Shown here: positions 7,991 through 24,110 of the stretch, one piece after another
How positions within the stretch are numbered: position 1 is the first letter of the stretch
Layout: each line of letters begins with the position of its first letter
Assembly (NCBI GenBank): GCA_947481575.1
Contig: CANKGV010000001.1
Location: forward strand, 124,001 to 188,000
Reading direction: 5' to 3'
Source: Alphaproteobacteria bacterium
Lineage (GTDB): Bacteria > Pseudomonadota > Alphaproteobacteria > UBA2966 > CAIVPW01
Length of the DNA stretch: 64,000 nucleotides
Made by a program: the position numbers and the translations under genes
Notes under the pieces: generated by a model
Database searches by the model: none
What the model saw: the letters and a program-made list of their open reading frames with translations, nothing else
Told to the model about the DNA's origin: nothing

Positions 7991-8683
7991 ATGCCGCGTC
8001 TTCCGAAAGACCCATTCGTTGCCCATATGACGACAGCGCAGCTTGCAGTAGCGCGCGCCGACGATGCACTGGTAAAGGCCCGCCTCGGCGGCGGTTGCAC
8101 CAGACTGCGATTGCGGGCCGGGCAAGCCGCGTTCCGGCAGGGCGACACCGGAGATGCCGTGTTCTACGTGGAGGACGGCGCGATCCAGCTGCGGGTGCTA
8201 TCGGCCGAAGGCAAGGAAGCGATCCTCGCGGTTCTGGGGCACGGAGACTTCTTCGGCGAAAGCTGCTTGGCCGGATATCCGCTCCACCTGACCACCGCCG
8301 TCGCCACCACCGCGGCGGCCGTGACCCGGATCGACAAGGCGGCGATGACCCGGCTGGTGCGGGACGACCCGCGCATGGCTGCGGCGCTGGTGGGGTTCCT
8401 GCTGGCGCGCAATGTTCAGGTCGAGGCCGATCTGGCGGAGCAGATGATTCATTCGGCCGAGCACCGTCTGGCGCGCCTGCTGCTGGAAATGGCGAGCGGC
8501 GGCCGGGACGGCAAATTGATCGCCATTCCCAATATCAGCCAGGGCGTACTGGCGGCGCGGGTGGGCACCACGCGGTCGCGCATCAACCAGTTCATGAACC
8601 GGTTCCGCAGGCTCGGCTACATCGAATACGGCGACGAACTGACGGTGCACGCGTCGCTCAACGACGTGATCGTCCGTCCCTGA
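7991..8683 (+). CDS. Crp/Fnr-family transcriptional regulator
   Basis: 230 residues. ATG 7991 is chosen because GGAGG at 7982-7986 precedes it at ideal spacing. Residues ~30-130 form the cyclic-nucleotide-binding-like beta-roll (RQGDTGDAVFYVEDGAIQL, GHGDFFGESCL). The C-terminal winged helix-turn-helix includes ISQGVLAARVGTTRSRINQF and RRLGYIEYG. There is no N-terminal cysteine cluster, so it is not an oxygen-sensing FNR; the ligand is unknown. It is monocistronic and divergent from lepA. The three dyads upstream are candidate autoregulatory sites. Confidence 0.88.
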   Translation: MPRLPKDPFVAHMTTAQLAVARADDALVKARLGGGCTRLRLRAGQAAFRQGDTGDAVFYVEDGAIQLRVLSAEGKEAILAVLGHGDFFGESCLAGYPLHLTTAVATTAAAVTRIDKAAMTRLVRDDPRMAAALVGFLLARNVQVEADLAEQMIHSAEHRLARLLLEMASGGRDGKLIAIPNISQGVLAARVGTTRSRINQFMNRFRRLGYIEYGDELTVHASLNDVIVRP

Positions 8684-14045: not shown

Positions 14046-14402
14046 TTATGCCAGCGCGGCCTGTGCCTGGTCCGCCAGCGTCTTGAAGGCCCCCGGATCG
14101 CGCACGGCGAGATCGGCGAGCACCTTGCGGTCGACCTCGATGCCGGCGGCCTTGAGGCCACACATAAATCGGCCGTAGGTCAGCCCGAGCTCGCGGGCGG
14201 CGGCGTTGATGCGGACGATCCACAGAGCGCGGAATTCGCGCTTCTTCACCCGGCGGTCGCGGTACGCGTACTGCAGCGCGTGGGTGGTGCGGTTGAACGC
14301 AATGCGGTAGCTGGACTTCGCGCGGTTGCGATAGCCCTTGGCGCGATCGAGAATCTTTTTGCGCGCTTCCTTACGGGGAACGGCGCGAGTTACGCGTGCC
14401 AT
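14046..14402 (-). CDS. rplT: 50S ribosomal protein L20
   Basis: 118 residues, standard length. The N-terminus [36 protein letters not shown]... is the L20 signature, and the conserved [27 protein letters not shown] block follows in shorter form. It is a 23S rRNA-binding assembly protein, co-transcribed with rpmI 22 bp upstream. In several bacteria L20 represses this operon; no such site is evident here. Confidence 0.98.
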
Positions 14403-14424
14403 GTCGGTCTAGCCTCGGTTGGAC

Positions 14425-14628
14425 TTATGGGCGCCCGTAGGGCAGCCATTGCTTCACGGTGATGCCGTCCTGCTTGCGCAGCACCTTGGTGCCACGCAGG
14501 CGGCGCGTCTGCGCTGGGCTGTTCGAGATCAAGCGGTGGCGCTTGCCGGCCTGCGCCGACTTCACCTTGCCGGTGGCCGTGATCTTGAAGCGCTTCTTGG
14601 CGCCACTCTTGGTCTTCATTTTCGGCAC
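14425..14628 (-). CDS. rpmI: 50S ribosomal protein L35
   Basis: 67 residues from a GTG start: AAGGA lies eight bases upstream, and the reading [20 protein letters not shown] matches the family start, whereas the inner ATG would be too far from the ribosome-binding site. It is followed by rplT. The usual upstream neighbour infC is not adjacent; about 6.7 kb of unrelated genes separates the two. Confidence 0.97.
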
Positions 14629-14754: not shown

Positions 14755-14772
14755 TATGAACAGTTGTTCATA
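14755..14772. promoter_or_regulatory. ArsR/SmtB-type operator, TATGAA-N6-TTCATA
   Basis: A perfect dyad TATGAACAGTTGTTCATA lies 22 bp before the ArsR start codon. It matches the inverted-repeat pattern TATGAA-N6-TTCATA described for zinc-sensing ArsR-family repressors such as CzrA. A TTGACT (14727-14732) upstream may be a -35 element, though no good -10 is visible at 17 bp; the dyad would then overlap the core promoter and block it. Confidence 0.75.
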
Positions 14773-14793
14773 TGTACACGCGGACGTGAGCCG

Positions 14794-15096
14794 ATGCGCC
14801 TGTCGCCCGACCAAACCATCGAACTGGCGGAAATGCTGCACATCATGGGCGAGGCGAACCGCCTTGGCATCCTGCTGTGCTGCCTGGAGACCGAGCGGGC
14901 GGTGAGCGACATCGCGGCGGAGCTGAGCCTGACGCCGTCCTTGGTGAGCCACCACCTGCGCCTGCTGCGCGGCGCGCGGCTGGTGCGGGCGCGGCGGCAA
15001 GGCAAGCAGGTGTTCTACAGCGCCGCCGACGCCCACGTGCGGTCGGTGATCGCCGACCTGGTGGCCCACGTGGGCGAAGACGAGGCCGAGGGATGA
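14794..15096 (+). CDS. ArsR/SmtB-family metal-responsive repressor with a zinc-type alpha-5 site
   Basis: 100 residues, winged helix-turn-helix (LSLTPSLVSHHLRLLRGARLVRARRQGKQVFY region, 45-75). The alpha-5 metal motif is complete: Asp79, His81, His92 and Glu95 fit DxH-X10-H-X2-E/H, the zinc/cobalt site of SmtB and CzrA. The alpha-3N cysteine motif of arsenic or cadmium sensors (ELCVCDL) is absent. ATG 14794 is chosen because the longer frame would start inside the operator. The stop overlaps the ATG of the CDF exporter (ATGA), so repressor and exporter form one autoregulated unit. Confidence 0.92.
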   Translation: MRLSPDQTIELAEMLHIMGEANRLGILLCCLETERAVSDIAAELSLTPSLVSHHLRLLRGARLVRARRQGKQVFYSAADAHVRSVIADLVAHVGEDEAEG

Positions 15097-15743
15097 GCGC
15101 CTGCGACGACGACCACGGGCATGACCATGGGCACGACCACGGCGTAGCGGCGCTGCCGCGCACTGCGGCGGTGATCCGGACGCTGTGGATCGTGCTGGTG
15201 CTCAACGCATTGATGTTCTTCATCGAAGGCGCGGCCGGGATCCTCGCGCATTCGACGGCGCTGCAGGCGGACTCCCTCGACTTCTTCGGCGACTCGGTGG
15301 CCTACGGCCTGAGCCTGTACGTGGCGGCCCGCAGCCTGCGGTGGCGCGCCGCGGCCGGCATGGCCAAGGGGCTGGCGATGGGCGCGCTGGGGCTGGGCAT
15401 CGCCGTCACCGCGCTGGTGCGGCTGTTCGTGGCCGAGGTGCCCCATGCCGGCGCGATCGGCACGGTGGGCGCCCTGGCGCTGGTGGTGAACGTGGTGTGC
15501 GCGGTGCTGCTGTACCGCCACCGCAACGGCGATTCCAACCTGCGCTCGGTGTGGCTGTGCAGCCGCAACGATGCGATCGGCAACTTGGCCGTGATTGCGG
15601 CGGGCGTAGGCGTGGCCGGGTTCGGGTCGCCGCTGCCCGATCTGGCGGTGGGCTTGGTGCTGGCGGGGCTGCAACTGAGCAGCGCCTATTCGATCATCAC
15701 CCAGGCGCGCCGCGAACTGCGGGCGGCACCCGCGGCCGCCTAG
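15093..15743 (+). CDS. Cation diffusion facilitator family metal exporter, short form
   Basis: 216 residues, essentially the six-helix membrane domain with no sizeable C-terminal cytoplasmic domain. The N-terminus is His/Asp-rich (DDDHGHDHGHDHG, residues 5-17). TM2 carries ADSLDFFGD, giving DxxxD where CzcD-type proteins have HxxxD; TM5 carries CSRNDAIGN, giving CxxxD where most have HxxxD. Such substitutions tune metal selectivity in CDFs. It overlaps the zinc-type ArsR gene by 4 bp, so zinc or a similar divalent metal is the likely substrate. Its TAG stop interlocks with that of the convergent multicopper oxidase. Confidence 0.88.
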   Translation: MSACDDDHGHDHGHDHGVAALPRTAAVIRTLWIVLVLNALMFFIEGAAGILAHSTALQADSLDFFGDSVAYGLSLYVAARSLRWRAAAGMAKGLAMGALGLGIAVTALVRLFVAEVPHAGAIGTVGALALVVNVVCAVLLYRHRNGDSNLRSVWLCSRNDAIGNLAVIAAGVGVAGFGSPLPDLAVGLVLAGLQLSSAYSIITQARRELRAAPAAA

Positions 15744-17227
15744 ACCACCGCGAACTGCCCCATCATCCCCTGATCTTCGTGCTCCAGGATGTGGCAGTGG
15801 AACATGAACGGCTGATGGCTGGCGGCGGGCTGGGTGAAATTCACCAGCAGTTCCGCGCGCTTCTGCACCAAGACCACGTCCTTCCAACCGGCTTCCTGCG
15901 CGGGCGGCGCAGCACCGTCCTTCGTAAGAATGCGGAAGCTCACGCCGTGCATGTGGAACGGGTGCGCCATGTCGGACGCGACAATTTCCCAGATCTCGCT
16001 CGTGCCAAGCTTGGCGGTGGCATCGACGCGGTCCATGCCGAACGGACGTCCGTTGATCGACAGAACCTGCGGCAGGCCTGATTCCGAACTGACCGGCCGC
16101 CCGCCCATCATGCCGGGGCCCATGACCGGATCGAGCGTGAACTTGCGGCGCGTGACAGCCGACTTTGCGTCGGGCGCCGCGCTTGCCACGAGCACACGGG
16201 GCAGACGCGCAACAGCCACTGGCAGCGCGGCGTCGGGCTGGAACCGCAGCAGCGGCCCCGCGGCGGAACCGCCGCCCATCATGCCCATCATTCCGCCACT
16301 GTGCTGATCGGCACCGGTGAGCAGATCGACCGGCTTGCGGTTGGTGAAGTCGACCAGGATTTCGTAGCGCTCGGCCGGCGCCATGACGAGGCCGGTCAGC
16401 TCCACCGGCGCGGGCAACAACCCGGCATCGCCGCCGATCACGTAGAACGGGCGGCCATCGGAGAACCGCAGGTCGAAGTTCCGGGCATTGGCGGCGTTGA
16501 GCACCCGCAGGCGCACAAACCCGGCGGGCACGCGCGCGGTCGGCCCGGCCACGCCGTTGACCAACAGCGTGTCACCGCGCATGCCGTCCATCAGCGTCAT
16601 CATGTCCGCCGCGTAGACCAACTGCCCATCCCGGGCGAAGCGCTTGTCCTGCAGCACGAGCGGTAGATCATCGACGCCATAGGTATTGGGCAACCCGAGG
16701 TCGCGGTCGGCGCCATCGGTCACGATCATCATGCCGGCCATGCCGGAATAGACCTGGCGGCCGGTGCGCCCGTGCGGGTGGGGATGGAACCATAGGGTGG
16801 CGGCCGGCTGCCGCACCGCGAGCGCGGGCTGCCACACGCCACCGGCGCGAATCGAGTTGTGGGGACCGCCGTCGACGCTCGACGGAATCAGCATGCCGTG
16901 CCAGTGCAAGGTACTCTCTTCGGCCAGGCGGTTTTCCACCCGGAATGGAATCGTGTCGCCGCTGCGAACCCGCACGACGGGACCAAGGTAGCCGGACGAA
17001 ATGCCGGTCGTGGCGACTTCGGGCCCAACACCGAAACTGTGGCGGCCGGTCTGCAGCGCCAAGGTGACCGGTTGACCATCCCGCGCTTCGATCAGCGCCG
17101 GAATGGGCAGCGCCGGACCGGCGCCAAGGGCACTTTGCGCCGAGCCAGGCAGCAGCCAATTGATGGCGGCGCCAGCGGCACCAGCACCGGCCAGCACGAG
17201 CAGACTGCGGCGTGAGATAAGGTCCAT
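15740..17227 (-). CDS. Multicopper oxidase with Tat signal (CueO/SufI-like)
   Basis: 495 residues. The N-terminal SRRSLLVLAGAGAAG segment is a Tat-type signal, so it folds before export. All four copper-ligand motifs are intact: HWHG (108-111), FHPHPHG (147-153), HPFHMHG (422-428) and HCHILEHEDQGMM (477-489), with type 1 ligands Cys478, His483 and Met488. Met-rich stretches (GGMMGMMGGG and PVMGPGMMGG) resemble the Met-rich segments of copper-oxidising CueO. It probably oxidises Cu(I) or another metal or phenol in the periplasm. It follows the Met/His-rich gene by 21 bp in one operon. Confidence 0.93.
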   Translation of the reverse strand: MDLISRRSLLVLAGAGAAGAAINWLLPGSAQSALGAGPALPIPALIEARDGQPVTLALQTGRHSFGVGPEVATTGISSGYLGPVVRVRSGDTIPFRVENRLAEESTLHWHGMLIPSSVDGGPHNSIRAGGVWQPALAVRQPAATLWFHPHPHGRTGRQVYSGMAGMMIVTDGADRDLGLPNTYGVDDLPLVLQDKRFARDGQLVYAADMMTLMDGMRGDTLLVNGVAGPTARVPAGFVRLRVLNAANARNFDLRFSDGRPFYVIGGDAGLLPAPVELTGLVMAPAERYEILVDFTNRKPVDLLTGADQHSGGMMGMMGGGSAAGPLLRFQPDAALPVAVARLPRVLVASAAPDAKSAVTRRKFTLDPVMGPGMMGGRPVSSESGLPQVLSINGRPFGMDRVDATAKLGTSEIWEIVASDMAHPFHMHGVSFRILTKDGAAPPAQEAGWKDVVLVQKRAELLVNFTQPAASHQPFMFHCHILEHEDQGMMGQFAVV

Positions 17228-17932: not shown

Positions 17933-17992
17933 GACCGACCTTCCTGGTAGCGAGGAGAACCTCTCCAACACATAAGGACCCGGTCAGCCGGA

Positions 17993-18014
17993 CGGTATGA
18001 TCCAGATCATACCG
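17993..18014 (-). promoter_or_regulatory. FNR/DNR-like box upstream of the Met/His-rich-oxidase operon
   Basis: Perfect dyad CGGTATGATCCAGATCATACCG (9-bp arms, 4-bp spacer) with the Crp/Fnr core TGAT-N4-ATCA. Its centre at 18003.5 would be at -41.5 for a start near 17962, and a TATGTG -10-like hexamer lies at 17974-17969 on the minus strand. This is class II activation geometry. The dyad covers the last codons of the upstream Crp/Fnr gene. Confidence 0.7.
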
Positions 18015-18645
18015 CTCCGGCGGCCAGGACGATTACGTCGGCCGCTGGGCGCGCGATGGCGCCGTCCTTAGCCAGCGCCGCCAGGGTCCGATAGACCACC
18101 TCGTGGGTGAGGCCGAGGTCCGCGGCCAGATCCATCACCGTACCCGCGAGGCGCACGGTGCGGCCGTCGGGACCGGCGGCGAGGGCCAAATGGTGCAGCA
18201 GGCGCTCGCGCGCCGAGCGGATGTTGCGCTCTTCCAGCCGCGTGCGCAGGGCGTGCAGTTGCTGCGACAGCACCGCCATGAAGCGCGCTGCCAAATCCGG
18301 GTCGCGGCGCAAGGCGGCGACCAGATCGCGTTTGGAATACACCCGGACGCGAGAGTCGACCGCGGCCACCGCATCACATTGATATGCGCCGGCGAACAAC
18401 GCAGCCTCCGCAAGGAACTCGCCCGCCTGGGCCGTGTGGAGCACGACCGAACGATCACTGCCCGCGGAGCGGATCAGCCGGACCCGTCCTTCCGCAACGC
18501 CGAAGATCGCGGCCGCGTGCTCGCCCTGGCGGAACAATGTTTCGCCGGCTCCGAGCCGGCGTTCGGGGGCGCGCTCGCGGATCGCATCCGGCAGCCAGTC
18601 GAGCGAGCGCGGCCTGAGCCCATGGTGATCTGCATCGTGCGCCAA
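18007..18645 (-). CDS. Crp/Fnr-family regulator of the metal/redox island
   Basis: 212 residues. The sensory beta-roll (LGAGETLFRQGEHAAAIFGV, GEFLAEAALFAGAYQCDAVA) has one cysteine and no FNR-type N-terminal cysteine cluster. The dimerisation helix is RFMAVLSQQLHALRTRLEE and the C-terminal winged helix is MDLAADLGLTHEVVYRTLAALAKDG. It lies between the oxidase operon (same strand, 74 bp downstream) and the divergent P-type ATPase, with FNR-like boxes on both sides. Inference: it is the local activator of both and possibly of itself. The ligand is unknown. Confidence 0.88.
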   Translation of the reverse strand: MAHDADHHGLRPRSLDWLPDAIRERAPERRLGAGETLFRQGEHAAAIFGVAEGRVRLIRSAGSDRSVVLHTAQAGEFLAEAALFAGAYQCDAVAAVDSRVRVYSKRDLVAALRRDPDLAARFMAVLSQQLHALRTRLEERNIRSARERLLHHLALAAGPDGRTVRLAGTVMDLAADLGLTHEVVYRTLAALAKDGAIARPAADVIVLAAGAV

Positions 18646-18691
18646 TGGTCACCCCCGATCCCACGAATGCCGATAGTGCGGTGGCAACGCA

Positions 18692-18705
18692 TTGATACCG
18701 ATCAA
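18692..18705. promoter_or_regulatory. Consensus FNR-like box TTGAT-N4-ATCAA in the divergent Crp/Fnr-ATPase promoter
   Basis: TTGATACCGATCAA is a perfect match to the symmetric FNR/FixK/DNR consensus. It is 46 bp from the Crp/Fnr start codon on one side and 62 bp from the preferred ATPase start (18768) on the other, so a site at -41.5 is possible for either. Core -10 elements are weak by eye. Confidence 0.72.
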
Positions 18706-18767
18706 CGCCCACCCGCACCGTTCACGCGAGCATGAACCTGCGCCGCCAAACCTGGAAACCAAACATC

Positions 18768-21125
18768 ATGAATCGCGCCGACGAGCGGTCGCCCACCCCG
18801 TCTGCCGCCACGGCCGGCCTCACCAGTGCGGTCGCGGCCGCACGGCTGCTGCAGGTTGGCCGCAACGAAATCGAGCCGCCCCGCGCTAACCGGATCCGCG
18901 CATTGCTGGGCAAGTTCTGGGGCGTCGTTCCCGGGATGCTTGAGCTTGCGGTGATCTTGAATGTCGTCCTGGGGCGGCAGTTCGAGGCTGCCATGATCGC
19001 CGCTCTCCTTGTCTTCAACGCGGTCCTGGGCTTCGTGCAGGAGAACCGGGCGCAGCGCGCACTTGCCTTGTTGCGCGCGCGGCTGGTGGTGAACGCGCGA
19101 GTGCTGCGGGATGCGGCGTGGCAGCAGATTCCTGCCGCCGCGCTGGTCCCGGACGACGTGGTGCGGATTCGCCTGGGCGACATCGTTCCCGCCGACGTCG
19201 TGATTGCCGACGGCCACGTGATGGTCGATCAGTCCACGCTGACCGGTGAGTCGCTCGCGGTCGAGCGGCAGGCCGGGGAGGCGCTGTATTCCGGCGCCTT
19301 GGTGACCCGCGGTGAGGCAACCGGAGTGGTCACCGCCACCGGCATGCGCACGTTCTTCGGCAAGACCGCCGATCTGGTGCGCTTGGCCGAAGCGCCGCGC
19401 CGGTTCGAGCGGACCATCGTGAAGATTGCGAATTGGCTGGGCGGATTGGTCATCCTGCTGGCCGCCGCGGTGCTCGCCGCAACGTTGGCGCGCGGCGCGG
19501 ACGTGATCACGATGCTGCCGTTTGGGCTGATGCTGTTGGTCGCCTCAGTGCCGGTGGCGCTGCCGATTATGTTCACGCTGTCGGCGCTGTTGGGTGCGCG
19601 CGCACTGGCCGGTGACGGAGTCCTGATCACGCGTTTGTCGGCGATCGAGGACGCGGCCACGATGGACGTGATCTGCCTCGACAAGACCGGCACCATTACC
19701 GCAAACCGCTTGGCCGTGGGCGAGATTGTTGCGTTTGGCGCAGCGACGCAAAGCGACGTGCTGCGATGGGCCGCCGTGGCGTCTGACGAAGCGACCCAGG
19801 ACCCGATCGACCTTGCGGTGCTGGATAGTGCCCGCGAACGCGGTCTGCTGGCCGATGCCCCAGCGCGCCTGTCGTTCACGCCGTTCGATCCGGCAGCCAA
19901 ACGAACCGAAGCGACGATCGACCGCGGCGGCGGGGCGAGCCGCATCATGAAAGGCGCGCCCGCAGTGCTCGCCGCGCTGGCGGCAACGCCGTGGAGCGAA
20001 CTTGTGCCGGAGGTTGCGCGGATGGCGGCCGACGGAGGACGTGTTCTGGCCGTCGCGACGGAACGCGACGGCGCCCTGCACGTGGACGGGCTGATTGCCC
20101 TGAGCGATCCGCCCCGGGCCGATTCCGCGGCCCTGATTGCCAACCTGCGGGCCCATGGGGTTCGCGTGGTGCTAGTCACCGACGACGGCGAAGCGACGGC
20201 ACGGGCGGTGGCGCAGGCGGTCGGCATCACCGGCGCGGTGGCGCCCGCAGGCACATTGGCGATGGATGGCGCCGACGTAGGCAGCTTCGACGTATTCGCC
20301 GGGGTCTTCCCGGAAGACAAGTTCCGCCTGATCCAAGTGCTGCAACGCGCCGGCCATACGGTCGGCATGACCGGCGATGGGGTCAACGATGCACCCGCAT
20401 TGCGTCAGGCCGAGGTGGGCATTGCCGTTGCCTCGGCGACGGACGTGGCAAAGGCGGCGGCCAGCGTGATTCTGACCCGGCCCGGCTTGGGCGAAATCAT
20501 CGCCGCCATCGACGGCAGCCGGCGGGTGTATCAGCGGATGCAAACATTCGCGCTGACGATGATTACCCGCAAGTTGGCGGTGCCAACGCTGCTCGCCGCC
20601 GGCGTGGTCGCTTTTGGTCAGTTCCTGCTGACCCCATTGCTGATGGTGGTGTTCATGTTCTTGACCGACGCGGCGACCATGGCGCTGTCGGCGGACCGGA
20701 CGATTCCGTCGCGGCTGCCGGATCGGTGGGCCGTGCGTCAGCTCATTGCCGCCGGGATTGGCCAGGCGGCGCTGCTGCTGGCGTTCAGCGGTGCGGTGTA
20801 CTGGACCGCGGCCCATGGGCTGCGGCTGGGCGTAGCGGAAACGCAGACGGTGATGTTCGTTTGGTTGGTATACGCGGGGACCCAGGCGGTCTTGTACGTG
20901 ACGCGCGTGCCCGGATTCTTTTGGGCGAAGCCCTACCCGGCGGCGCCCCTACTCGTCGCGACCACTGCCGAGACCGTCATTGTTGCCACGCTCGCCACGC
21001 GGGGGTGGTTGATGGCCCCCGTGGCGCCAAGCTTGGTCGGCGCGGTGCTGTTGGCGGCAGGGGGGTTCATGCTGTCGGCCAACCTGTTGCGGGCCGCCGC
21101 AACGCGCTGGGCGCGCCGGCCTTAG
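18768..21125 (+). CDS. P3A-type (plasma-membrane H+-ATPase-like) P-type ATPase
   Basis: 785 residues from ATG 18768; an ATG 12 codons earlier is possible, but the FNR-like box placement favours the later one. The order is actuator TGES (LTGESLAVE), P3A-specific membrane motif SVPVALPIMFTLSALLGARALA, phosphorylation loop CLDKTGT (Asp305), nucleotide-binding KGAP, hinge TGDGVNDAPALRQAEVGIA and C-terminal helices. There is no CPx metal motif and no N-terminal heavy-metal domain. P3A enzymes export protons. Its stop interlocks with that of a convergent lipoprotein gene. Confidence 0.9.
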   Translation: MNRADERSPTPSAATAGLTSAVAAARLLQVGRNEIEPPRANRIRALLGKFWGVVPGMLELAVILNVVLGRQFEAAMIAALLVFNAVLGFVQENRAQRALALLRARLVVNARVLRDAAWQQIPAAALVPDDVVRIRLGDIVPADVVIADGHVMVDQSTLTGESLAVERQAGEALYSGALVTRGEATGVVTATGMRTFFGKTADLVRLAEAPRRFERTIVKIANWLGGLVILLAAAVLAATLARGADVITMLPFGLMLLVASVPVALPIMFTLSALLGARALAGDGVLITRLSAIEDAATMDVICLDKTGTITANRLAVGEIVAFGAATQSDVLRWAAVASDEATQDPIDLAVLDSARERGLLADAPARLSFTPFDPAAKRTEATIDRGGGASRIMKGAPAVLAALAATPWSELVPEVARMAADGGRVLAVATERDGALHVDGLIALSDPPRADSAALIANLRAHGVRVVLVTDDGEATARAVAQAVGITGAVAPAGTLAMDGADVGSFDVFAGVFPEDKFRLIQVLQRAGHTVGMTGDGVNDAPALRQAEVGIAVASATDVAKAAASVILTRPGLGEIIAAIDGSRRVYQRMQTFALTMITRKLAVPTLLAAGVVAFGQFLLTPLLMVVFMFLTDAATMALSADRTIPSRLPDRWAVRQLIAAGIGQAALLLAFSGAVYWTAAHGLRLGVAETQTVMFVWLVYAGTQAVLYVTRVPGFFWAKPYPAAPLLVATTAETVIVATLATRGWLMAPVAPSLVGAVLLAAGGFMLSANLLRAAATRWARRP

Positions 21126-21430: not shown

Positions 21431-21970
21431 CTATTTGGGCGACATGACCATGGTCATCTGACGGCCTTCCATGATCGGGTTCTGTTCGACCTTGGCCAGC
21501 AGGGCGAGGTCGCCTTGGACCCGGAACAGGACCTTCATGCCGAGCTCTTGGTGGGCGAGCTCGCGGCCACGGAACCGCAGCGTCACCTTCACCTTGTCGC
21601 CTTCTTCGAGGAAGCCCTTCATGGCGCGCATCTTGACGTCGTAGTCGTGCACGTCGATGCCGGGGCGCATCTTGATCTCTTTGATCTCGATGACCTTTTG
21701 CTTCTTACGCGCGACCGCGGTCTTCTTCTGCTCCTCGTACTTGAACTTGCCGTAGTCGAGGATCTTGCAGACCGGCGGATCGGAATTCGGGGAAATTTCG
21801 ACCAAGTCCAGGCCAACGTCGCGGGCCATGTTCATGGCCTCGTTGATCGTCTTTACGCCTACGTTCTCGCCGGTGTGGTCGATGAGTCGCACGGTGGCGA
21901 CATTGATCATGTCATTGATCCGCGGCCCTTTACGGGTGGGCGGCGTCTGACTGGGACGTCTGACTACTAT
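21431..21970 (-). CDS. infC: Translation initiation factor IF-3, probably started at ATA
   Basis: The conserved IF-3 body is obvious ([53 protein letters not shown]). The first ATG (21910) would cut off the N-terminal motif KGPRIND, which is encoded in frame upstream. Extending to ATA at 21970, seven bases after a GGAG, gives 179 residues, the normal IF-3 length. Non-AUG starts such as AUU are known for infC and allow autoregulation by initiation-codon discrimination. thrS lies 100 bp upstream on the same strand. Confidence 0.9.
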
Positions 21971-22070
21971 GTAGCGGCTCCTTTGCTGGCGGGGCGCACT
22001 CCCGCACTCAACTCAATTAGAAAGTTGCGCCGGGACCCGGGCTTTTCAAGATACAGGCGTTGCGCCCGCA

Positions 22071-23996
22071 CTATTGCCCCGGAACCCTCGCTTCCGCGGC
22101 GAGTCTAGCCACCGCCTCGCTCAGCGCAAGGACTTCCTGGCCGTCCGAGCCTAAGCGGCGGATAGACACGGTTTCTTGTTCGGCTTCGCGTTTGCCGATG
22201 GCGAGCAACACCGGGACTTTCGCCAGCGAGTGCTCGCGCACCTTGTAGTTGATCTTTTCGTTGGCCAAATCGAGGGTTACCCGCAGGCCGGCCGCACGCA
22301 GGCGCGCCGACACCTGGTTGGCGTAGGCGTCGCCGTCTTGCGTGATGGTGGCGATGGCGACCTGGACCGGCGCCAGCCACAGCGGGAACTTGCCCGCGTA
22401 GTGCTCGATCAGGATGCCGGTGAAGCGCTCGAGCGACCCCAGGATGGCGCGGTGCAGCATCACGGGGCGCTGGCGCGTGCCGTCTTCCGCCGTGTACTGG
22501 GCGCCCAACCGCTCGGGCAGCACGAAGTCCACCTGCAGGGTGCCGCACTGCCAATCGCGGCCGATGGTATCGCGCAGCACGAATTCGAGCTTCGGCCCGT
22601 AGAACGCGCCTTCGCCGGGGTTGAGCGTGACTTCCAGGCCGGCGGCTTGGGCCGCATTGCGCAACGCGGCTTCGGCGCGGTCCCACGTTTCATCGGAACC
22701 GGCGCGCACCTTGGGCCGGTCGGAGAACTTCACGCGGACATCCCTGAACCCGAAGTCTTTGTAGACATCAAGCAACAGGTCGCAGAACGATTTCGTTTCC
22801 GGCGTGATCTGCGCTTCGGTGCAGAAGATGTGGGCGTCGTCTTGCGTGAACCCGCGTACGCGCATCAGGCCATGCAGCGCTCCGCTCGGTTCGTAGCGGT
22901 GGCACGCGCCGAACTCGGCCATGCGGTAGGGCAGATCGCGGTAGCTTTTGATGCCCTGCTTGTAGATCTGGATGTGGCCCGGGCAGTTCATCGGCTTGAG
23001 CGCGAAGGTGCGCTCTTCCGATTCGGTCGTGTACATGTGGTGACCGAACTTTTCCCAGTGGCCCGACTGCTCCCACAACGTGCGGTCCATCAGCGTGGGG
23101 GTGCGGACTTCCTGGTAATCGGCCTTGCGCAGGCGGGCGCGGATGTAGTCTTCCAGCGCGCGGTACAGCGTCCAGCCATTGGGGTGCCAGAACGCCATGC
23201 CGGCCGCTTCTTCTTGGAAGTGGAACAGGTCCATTTCCTTGGCGATGCGGCGGTGGTCGCGCTTTTCGGCTTCCTCGATGCGCGTGAGGTAGGCGTTCAG
23301 TTCCTTCTCGTCGCGCCACGCGGTGCCGTAGATGCGCTGCAGCATCTCGTTCTTCGAATCGCCACGCCAATAGGCGCCGGCGAGCTTCAACAGCTTGAAG
23401 CCGCCGCCAAGTTTGCCCGACGACGGCAGATGGGGCCCGCGGCACAGGTCGACGAAATCGCCGTGGCGGTAGAGCGTGACGTCTTCGTGGGACGGGATGC
23501 TGGCGATGATCTCGGCTTTGTACTTCTCGCCCATGTCGTGGAAGTACTGCACCGCCTTGTCGCGCTGCCACACTTCGCGCGTGACCGGCACATCGCGCTG
23601 CACGATCTCCTTCATGCGCGCTTCGATCTTGACCAAGTCATCCGGCTGGAACGGCGTGGCGCGGCTGAAGTCGTAGAAGAACCCGTCTTCGATGTTGGGG
23701 CCGATGGTGATCTGGGTTTCCGGGTACAGCTCCTTCACCGCCGCCGCCATCACGTGGGCGGCATCGTGGCGCAGCAGGTCGTAGACCGTCGCGTCGTCGT
23801 CCTTGCGGGTGACGATAGCGACCTTGGCATCCTGCTCAATGGGCCGGGTGAGATCCCACACTGCCCCGTCGACCTTGGCGGCGATCGCAGCCTTGGCGAG
23901 GCCGGGGCCGATATCGGCCGCCAGCGCAGCGCCCGTTACCGGGCCGGGGAATTTGCGGACGCTACCGTCCGGCAGTGTGATGGCAACCACAGGCAT
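22071..23996 (-). CDS. thrS: Threonyl-tRNA synthetase
   Basis: 641 residues from ATG 23996 (a GTG three codons earlier is possible). It has an N-terminal TGS domain ([14 protein letters not shown]), an editing domain with HxxxH ([10 protein letters not shown], ~residue 80), and class II motifs: motif 2 [31 protein letters not shown] in shortened view and motif 3 [13 protein letters not shown]. The anticodon-binding domain is [10 protein letters not shown] to the end. Zinc ligands are Cys in PMNCPGH and downstream His. It precedes infC, the usual order. Confidence 0.97.
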
Positions 23997-24110
23997 ACCT
24001 TCCACCAGAGAAGCGCGGAACGTACGGCGATTCCATAGGCTGTCAAGCGAACGGGCGTGCGGAAGGTGGGGCTGTGGCCACTCTGACGCGTTGCGATCTA
24101 CATTGCGGGT

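Follow-up and report, generated by a model that had tools for sequence, protein, structure and literature searches.

A putative ATGAT-N4-ATCAT operator of a Crp/Fnr-superfamily regulator at a copper-oxidase operon in an alphaproteobacterium, and a neighbouring FNR-type box

The metal island and its two palindromes

The window, that is, the whole stretch of DNA analysed here, comprises 64,000 nucleotides and contains a metal island (ArsR-CDF, oxidase operon, regulator and ATPase) located between rpmI-rplT-pheST and infC-thrS (14046-14628; 21431-24005). The infC-rpmI-rplT order, which is usually contiguous in bacteria, is split by this island. A small ArsR/SmtB-like protein encoded before a CDF-type metal transporter (14764-15096, plus strand) adds to the island another metal regulator, independent of the first. 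Another Crp/Fnr-type protein, with the helix TTRSRINQ, is encoded about 9 kb away (window positions ~8100-8650, plus strand) and was matched by both P0001 and HTH_Crp_2 searches. The features around the two palindromes are as follows.

15740-17227, minus strand: P0003, CueO-like multicopper oxidase with Pfam Cu-oxidase domains, in a positional operon with P0002
17249-17932, minus strand: P0002, exported Met/His-rich protein, conserved partner gene of the regulator, HHQxHH conserved near the C-terminus
17969-17974, minus strand: -10-like TATGTG, placed by the window hexamer and by the -10 score, which in 18 loci peaks +29.5 from the dyad centre
17993-18014, no strand: box 1, core ATGAT-N4-ATCAT, centre 18003.5, proposed operator of P0001; conserved with the regulator, absent without it
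18007-18645, minus strand: P0001, Crp/Fnr-superfamily regulator with a TTG start, a single Cys90 in a Y-x-C-D motif and the recognition helix THEVVYR
18692-18705, no strand: box 2, dyad TTGATACCGATCAA of FNR type, between the divergent regulator and ATPase genes (86-bp gap, 18646-18731)
18732-21125, plus strand: P0004, P-type IIIA (H+) ATPase (TIGR01647, 621.3 bits; cut-off 615.5)

The oxidase P0003 scored 522.2 bits against the NCBIfam equivalog model for CueO, whose cut-off is 525. It is separated from P0002 by about 20 nt on the same strand, and by position the two genes appear to form one operon. No family in Pfam or NCBIfam matched P0002, which consists of a signal peptide, a Met/His-rich linker and a confidently modelled C-terminal alpha/beta domain, with HHQxHH being invariant; a structure search with this modelled domain revealed no relative in the PDB. 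The true start of P0004 may be the ATG at 18768, and its homologues align from about residue 20.

Box 1 (CGGTATGATCCAGATCATACCG) is a 22-bp perfect dyad, CGGTATGATC-CA-GATCATACCG, with arms of 10 + 10 bp. It overlaps the stop codon of P0001 (18007-18009) and thus does not lie in a free intergenic gap. Box 1 and box 2 were the only TGAT-N4-ATCA sites in the window (0.34 expected), both flanking P0001 and less than 700 bp apart; only 4 out of 100 shuffled 64-kb sequences reached two such sites, and the pair is beyond chance in the window. A first-pass annotation had described two FNR-like boxes on either side of the Crp/Fnr gene. Both dyads were indeed present at the coordinates listed above; a strict FNR likeness, however, held for box 2 (TTGAT-N4-ATCAA) and not for box 1, whose outer bases are A/T instead of the T/A of the FNR consensus. 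In the whole genome (2.45 Mb), 50 TGAT-N4-ATCA, 4 TTGAT-N4-ATCAA and 3 ATGAT-N4-ATCAT sites were counted. Genome-wide intergenic counts refer to single sites inspected one by one, and in this inspection two of the three ATGAT-N4-ATCAT sites lay well within long coding frames, box 1 being the sole exception.

Conservation of box 1 with the regulator

To characterize box 1, we sampled 28 relatives of P0001 from genomes and plasmids. The ATGAT-N4-ATCAT dyad was identified in all 28, on plasmids as well as chromosomes (in a few with one arm base relaxed), either at the start codon of the regulator or a short way upstream of the partner. Nearly all of these relatives adjoin a P0002 homologue. The two genes are divergent in most cases, and the dyad then lies at the start codon of the regulator; a tandem order with the regulator first was observed in the window and in four other loci (Rhizobium plasmids L032 and L033, genomes G080 and G070), and in the window and L032 the dyad lies over the regulator's stop codon. 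Where the start of the partner gene was clear, the dyad was mostly found 58-72 nt upstream of it. It should be noted that the P0002 homologue on the Rhizobium ruizarguesonis plasmid (L032:5796-6459) seems to be split into two frames, one for the signal-peptide part and one for the mature part, and that the regulator of S. meliloti 1021 pSymA also reads in two frames, that of GR4 being intact.

A TGA-type dyad was present upstream of the P0002 homologue in 23 of 23 loci with an adjacent regulator and in none of four loci without one (Fisher p = 6e-5). The sampled loci are partly non-independent, several Roseobacter plasmids being close to each other, and the value became 1e-4 when 18 near-independent loci were counted. 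Five more regulators of the family also had the dyad: L182 (with the partner), L082 (partner out of view) and three from Sinorhizobium and Rhizobium (L180, L181 and L184), in which a divergent gene for a Spy/CpxP-like exported protein replaces P0002 and the dyad is kept at the regulator's start. Thus, the dyad follows the regulator and not the target. The family operator could be summarized as A-TGAT-N4-ATCA-T, with the outer A in 21 and the outer T in all of 22 distinct operators.

To relate the dyad to the promoter, we scored a -10 matrix at all distances from it in the 18 near-independent loci. A single sharp peak was observed, with the hexamer starting at centre +29.5 (score +1.74, compared with -4.7 or lower elsewhere; TA in 12 of 18 loci). 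This conserved offset places the dyad 41.5 bp upstream of the predicted transcription start, which is class II geometry. The -41.5 position had been proposed before from the window, and was thus borne out by an independent route. The TATGTG element noted at that time (17974-17969 on the minus strand) occupies exactly the place of the relatives' -10, although it is weak as a -10 hexamer; transcription is predicted to start at about 17962, with the centre of box 1 at -41.5 and a leader of about 30 nt.

Box 1 is a perfect inverted repeat overlapping a stop codon, and one might take it for a 3'-end structure of the regulator gene, either a terminator or an RNA hairpin. Such a reading appears highly improbable, since in divergent relatives the dyad lies at the start of the regulator and not at its end, the loop would be only 2-4 bases, no T-run follows box 1 in the window and the spacing to the -10 is conserved. 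The dyad keeps its place with respect to the target gene and not to where the regulator ends, and we rejected the hairpin on this basis.

On the basis of these comparisons, box 1 is well established as an operator, and both its link to the regulator and its -41.5 position are supported across the family. We consider it quite likely that box 1 serves P0001, encoded next to it, as an operator for class II activation of the P0002-oxidase operon. A dimer of P0001, which belongs to a distinct Crp/Fnr subfamily, would bind ATGAT-N4-ATCAT centred at -41.5 and act as a class II activator of the P0002-type periplasmic Met/His-rich gene and, in this genome, also of the CueO-like oxidase. In many alphaproteobacteria, box 1 probably switches on a copper-detoxifying operon. 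In most relatives the dyad covers the regulator's start codon, and negative autoregulation is predicted there; this overlap would be lost in the order seen in the window, in which regulator, dyad and target follow each other on one strand.

Box 2 and its candidate readers

The FNR-type outer bases of box 2 were found in none of the 22 distinct family operators, and the region before the regulator in the remaining four tandem loci (L032, L033, L047/L075 and L048/L076) showed no TGA-N6-TCA dyad. Judging from these comparisons, box 2 is probably not the usual site of P0001. It is a separate FNR-type site, real and, by its frequency, unlikely to have arisen by chance, but observed in this position in no genome other than this one. 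The H+-ATPase, the regulator or both may be under its control. We also considered the H+-ATPase as a conserved member of the module and rejected it, as the P-type ATPases neighbouring the relatives are only ~30% identical to P0004. The nearest homologues of P0004 in the class came from other genomes, which lack the module.

It was previously suggested that P0001 binds both boxes, which would couple copper oxidation (through box 1) to proton pumping and, in the full form of this model, also to the regulator's own synthesis (both through box 2). For box 1 this agrees with the shared presence and absence of operator and regulator, but the outer bases of box 2 and its lack in the other tandem loci do not fit the family. 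Several observations are nevertheless in line with common control. First, the window has no TGAT-N4-ATCA site other than the two around P0001. Second, genome searches found no regulator with the canonical FNR helix E-x-x-S-R (the assembly is 98.7% complete), and P0001 was the only HTH_Crp_2 protein found that has Glu and Arg at the FNR positions and lacks a CRP-type Arg before the Glu. Third, an ATPase start at 18768 would put box 2 at -41.5 relative to a -10 element GAGCAT. However, this hexamer is a poor -10 by eye, and for the regulator, class II spacing leaves no suitable -10. Taken together, binding of both boxes by P0001 was not supported and seems doubtful: the H+-ATPase is no conserved neighbour, and TTGAT boxes occur near another type of Crp/Fnr protein that is present in the genome. 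The joint regulon, with copper oxidation and proton pumping under one control, is unproven and of about the same doubtful standing.

In a genome-wide scan of the kind proposed earlier, all four TTGAT-N4-ATCAA sites were located at gene starts or promoters, which suggests that a TTGAT reader probably exists in this genome, perhaps another Crp/Fnr paralogue. The three sites other than box 2 (L052, L053 and L054) are near the starts of genes for a cytochrome c, an FMN-oxidoreductase and a small membrane protein, and they suggest a separate small regulon. With nearly even probability, box 2 would be read by another Crp/Fnr paralogue within a genome-wide TTGAT regulon, the best candidate being a protein with an HVNR helix (THFHVNR) encoded on contig 6 (C6:33577-34440), 0.9 kb from the cytochrome c site. 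TTGAT matches in three relatives of the P0001 family looked like chance, mostly inside long frames. Among nine homologues of the paralogue with at least 40% identity, six had a TTGA-N6-TCAA box within ~1.2 kb, compared with 3 of 25 more distant ones (p = 0.004, post hoc), yet four of these six share one plasmid neighbourhood and are hence non-independent. Such boxes were not seen at distant HVNR homologues, and no general link to TTGAT emerged across 30 loci. We know of no recognition code for HVNR helices. On plasmid loci L146-L148, which carry an HVNR-type Crp/Fnr gene, two kinds of box, TTGATCTGAATCAA-like and TTGATCGAGATTAA-like, lie about 100 bp from each other. On the whole, we have a slight preference for the paralogue as the reader of box 2.

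The regulator, its possible signal and known systems

P0001 contains a cNMP_binding domain (PF00027, 61.7 bits) followed by HTH_Crp_2 (PF13545, 30.9 bits), both over the cut-off, and its model has the Crp fold, which places it in the Crp/Fnr superfamily. The structure modelling used sequence rows from the window and from genome loci. Among solved structures, DNR and CRP-type proteins were nearest to it in sequence. Residues invariant in 22 relatives included F38, G53, E80, Y88, C90, R134, R148, E182, Y185 and R186. The only cysteine, Cys90, lies in the sensor domain, and thus the N-terminal [4Fe-4S] cysteines of FNR are absent; the recognition helix reads E-x-x-Y-R in place of the E-x-x-S-R of FNR, and the family operator is ATGAT-N4-ATCAT in place of TTGAT-N4-ATCAA. 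By these features P0001 is not an FNR, and its sensor, which has no cysteine cluster, is not FNR-like. In CRP, Arg82 and Ser83 bind the phosphate of cAMP. These columns are occupied by C90-D91 in P0001, and binding of cAMP in the manner of CRP is unlikely; the comparison thus indicates loss of both the CRP and the FNR sensor residues. An E-x-x-S-R regulator from Acidithiobacillus (A. ferrooxidans, L183) has a TTGAT-N4-ATCAA box upstream, and this one contrast case suggests a recognition-helix rule in which the change from Ser to Tyr goes with the change of the outer base from T to A (TTGAT to ATGAT).

With regard to the signal, genes near the relatives' modules encode CopA-type ATPases, CopZ-like and DUF411 proteins, CDF transporters, CopC/CopD and multicopper oxidases. 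From this neighbourhood we infer that copper may be the signal. Against copper, a Dinoroseobacter shibae strain with a 102-kb plasmid showed unchanged resistance to copper, cobalt and zinc and slightly higher resistance to silver (PMC9426580). We found a P0001-family module on a plasmid of D. shibae that is equally large (102,061 bp), and with a slight gain in silver resistance and none in copper resistance, silver or other thiophilic stress is possible. We regard stress by copper or silver as the probable signal. It may be sensed at Cys90, the residue that replaces the arginine contacting the cAMP phosphate in CRP. A broader proposal is rather unlikely as a whole: that the invariant Tyr-x-Cys, located in what was once the cyclic-nucleotide pocket, lets the subfamily sense copper or silver directly, and that this subfamily binds ATGAT-N4-ATCAT to control the undescribed periplasmic HHQxHH family across alphaproteobacterial metal-resistance plasmids, a proton pump having been captured in the window through the second box. 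If metal sensing by the pocket cysteine were true, it would represent a sensing chemistry new to the Crp/Fnr superfamily, and copper control would have gained a new route.

We found no description of the P0001 subfamily in the open-access literature, 'Crp/Fnr' itself being unusable as a search term. The regulator is widespread on plasmids and has so far borne the generic annotation 'Crp/Fnr family'; our data suggest which operator it uses, in what geometry and for which target. A class II Crp/Fnr activator is of a known kind; the pocket and the operator are unusual, and the target family is undescribed, also in the family libraries searched.

P0001 shares with the FNR/ANR/DNR family (for example, E. 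coli FNR) the Crp fold, TGAT half-sites with a 4-bp spacer, the class II position at -41.5 and the Glu and Arg of the recognition helix. In contrast with that family, it has no N-terminal cysteine cluster, carries Tyr for Ser in the helix and has A/T instead of T/A as the outer operator bases, and its relatives are linked to copper genes, whereas FNR/ANR/DNR proteins are linked to anaerobic respiration. CRP is similar in fold, in the cNMP-binding-like domain (PF00027) and in class II geometry, but P0001 has Cys-Asp for Arg82-Ser83, a helix without the Arg180 of CRP and TGAT rather than TGTGA in its operator. Spy/CpxP-type proteins, like P0002, are small and exported, and in Sinorhizobium and Rhizobium their genes diverge from that of a P0001-subfamily regulator, which has the same operator there; they have no evident sequence relation to the P0002 family, and their likeness to Spy/CpxP was judged by eye and unscored. 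Finally, CueR, CsoR and CopRS are known copper regulators. Like the control proposed for P0001, theirs acts locally on genes for copper detoxification, CueO-type oxidases among them, whereas P0001 belongs to another superfamily, Crp/Fnr, and would need no sensor kinase.
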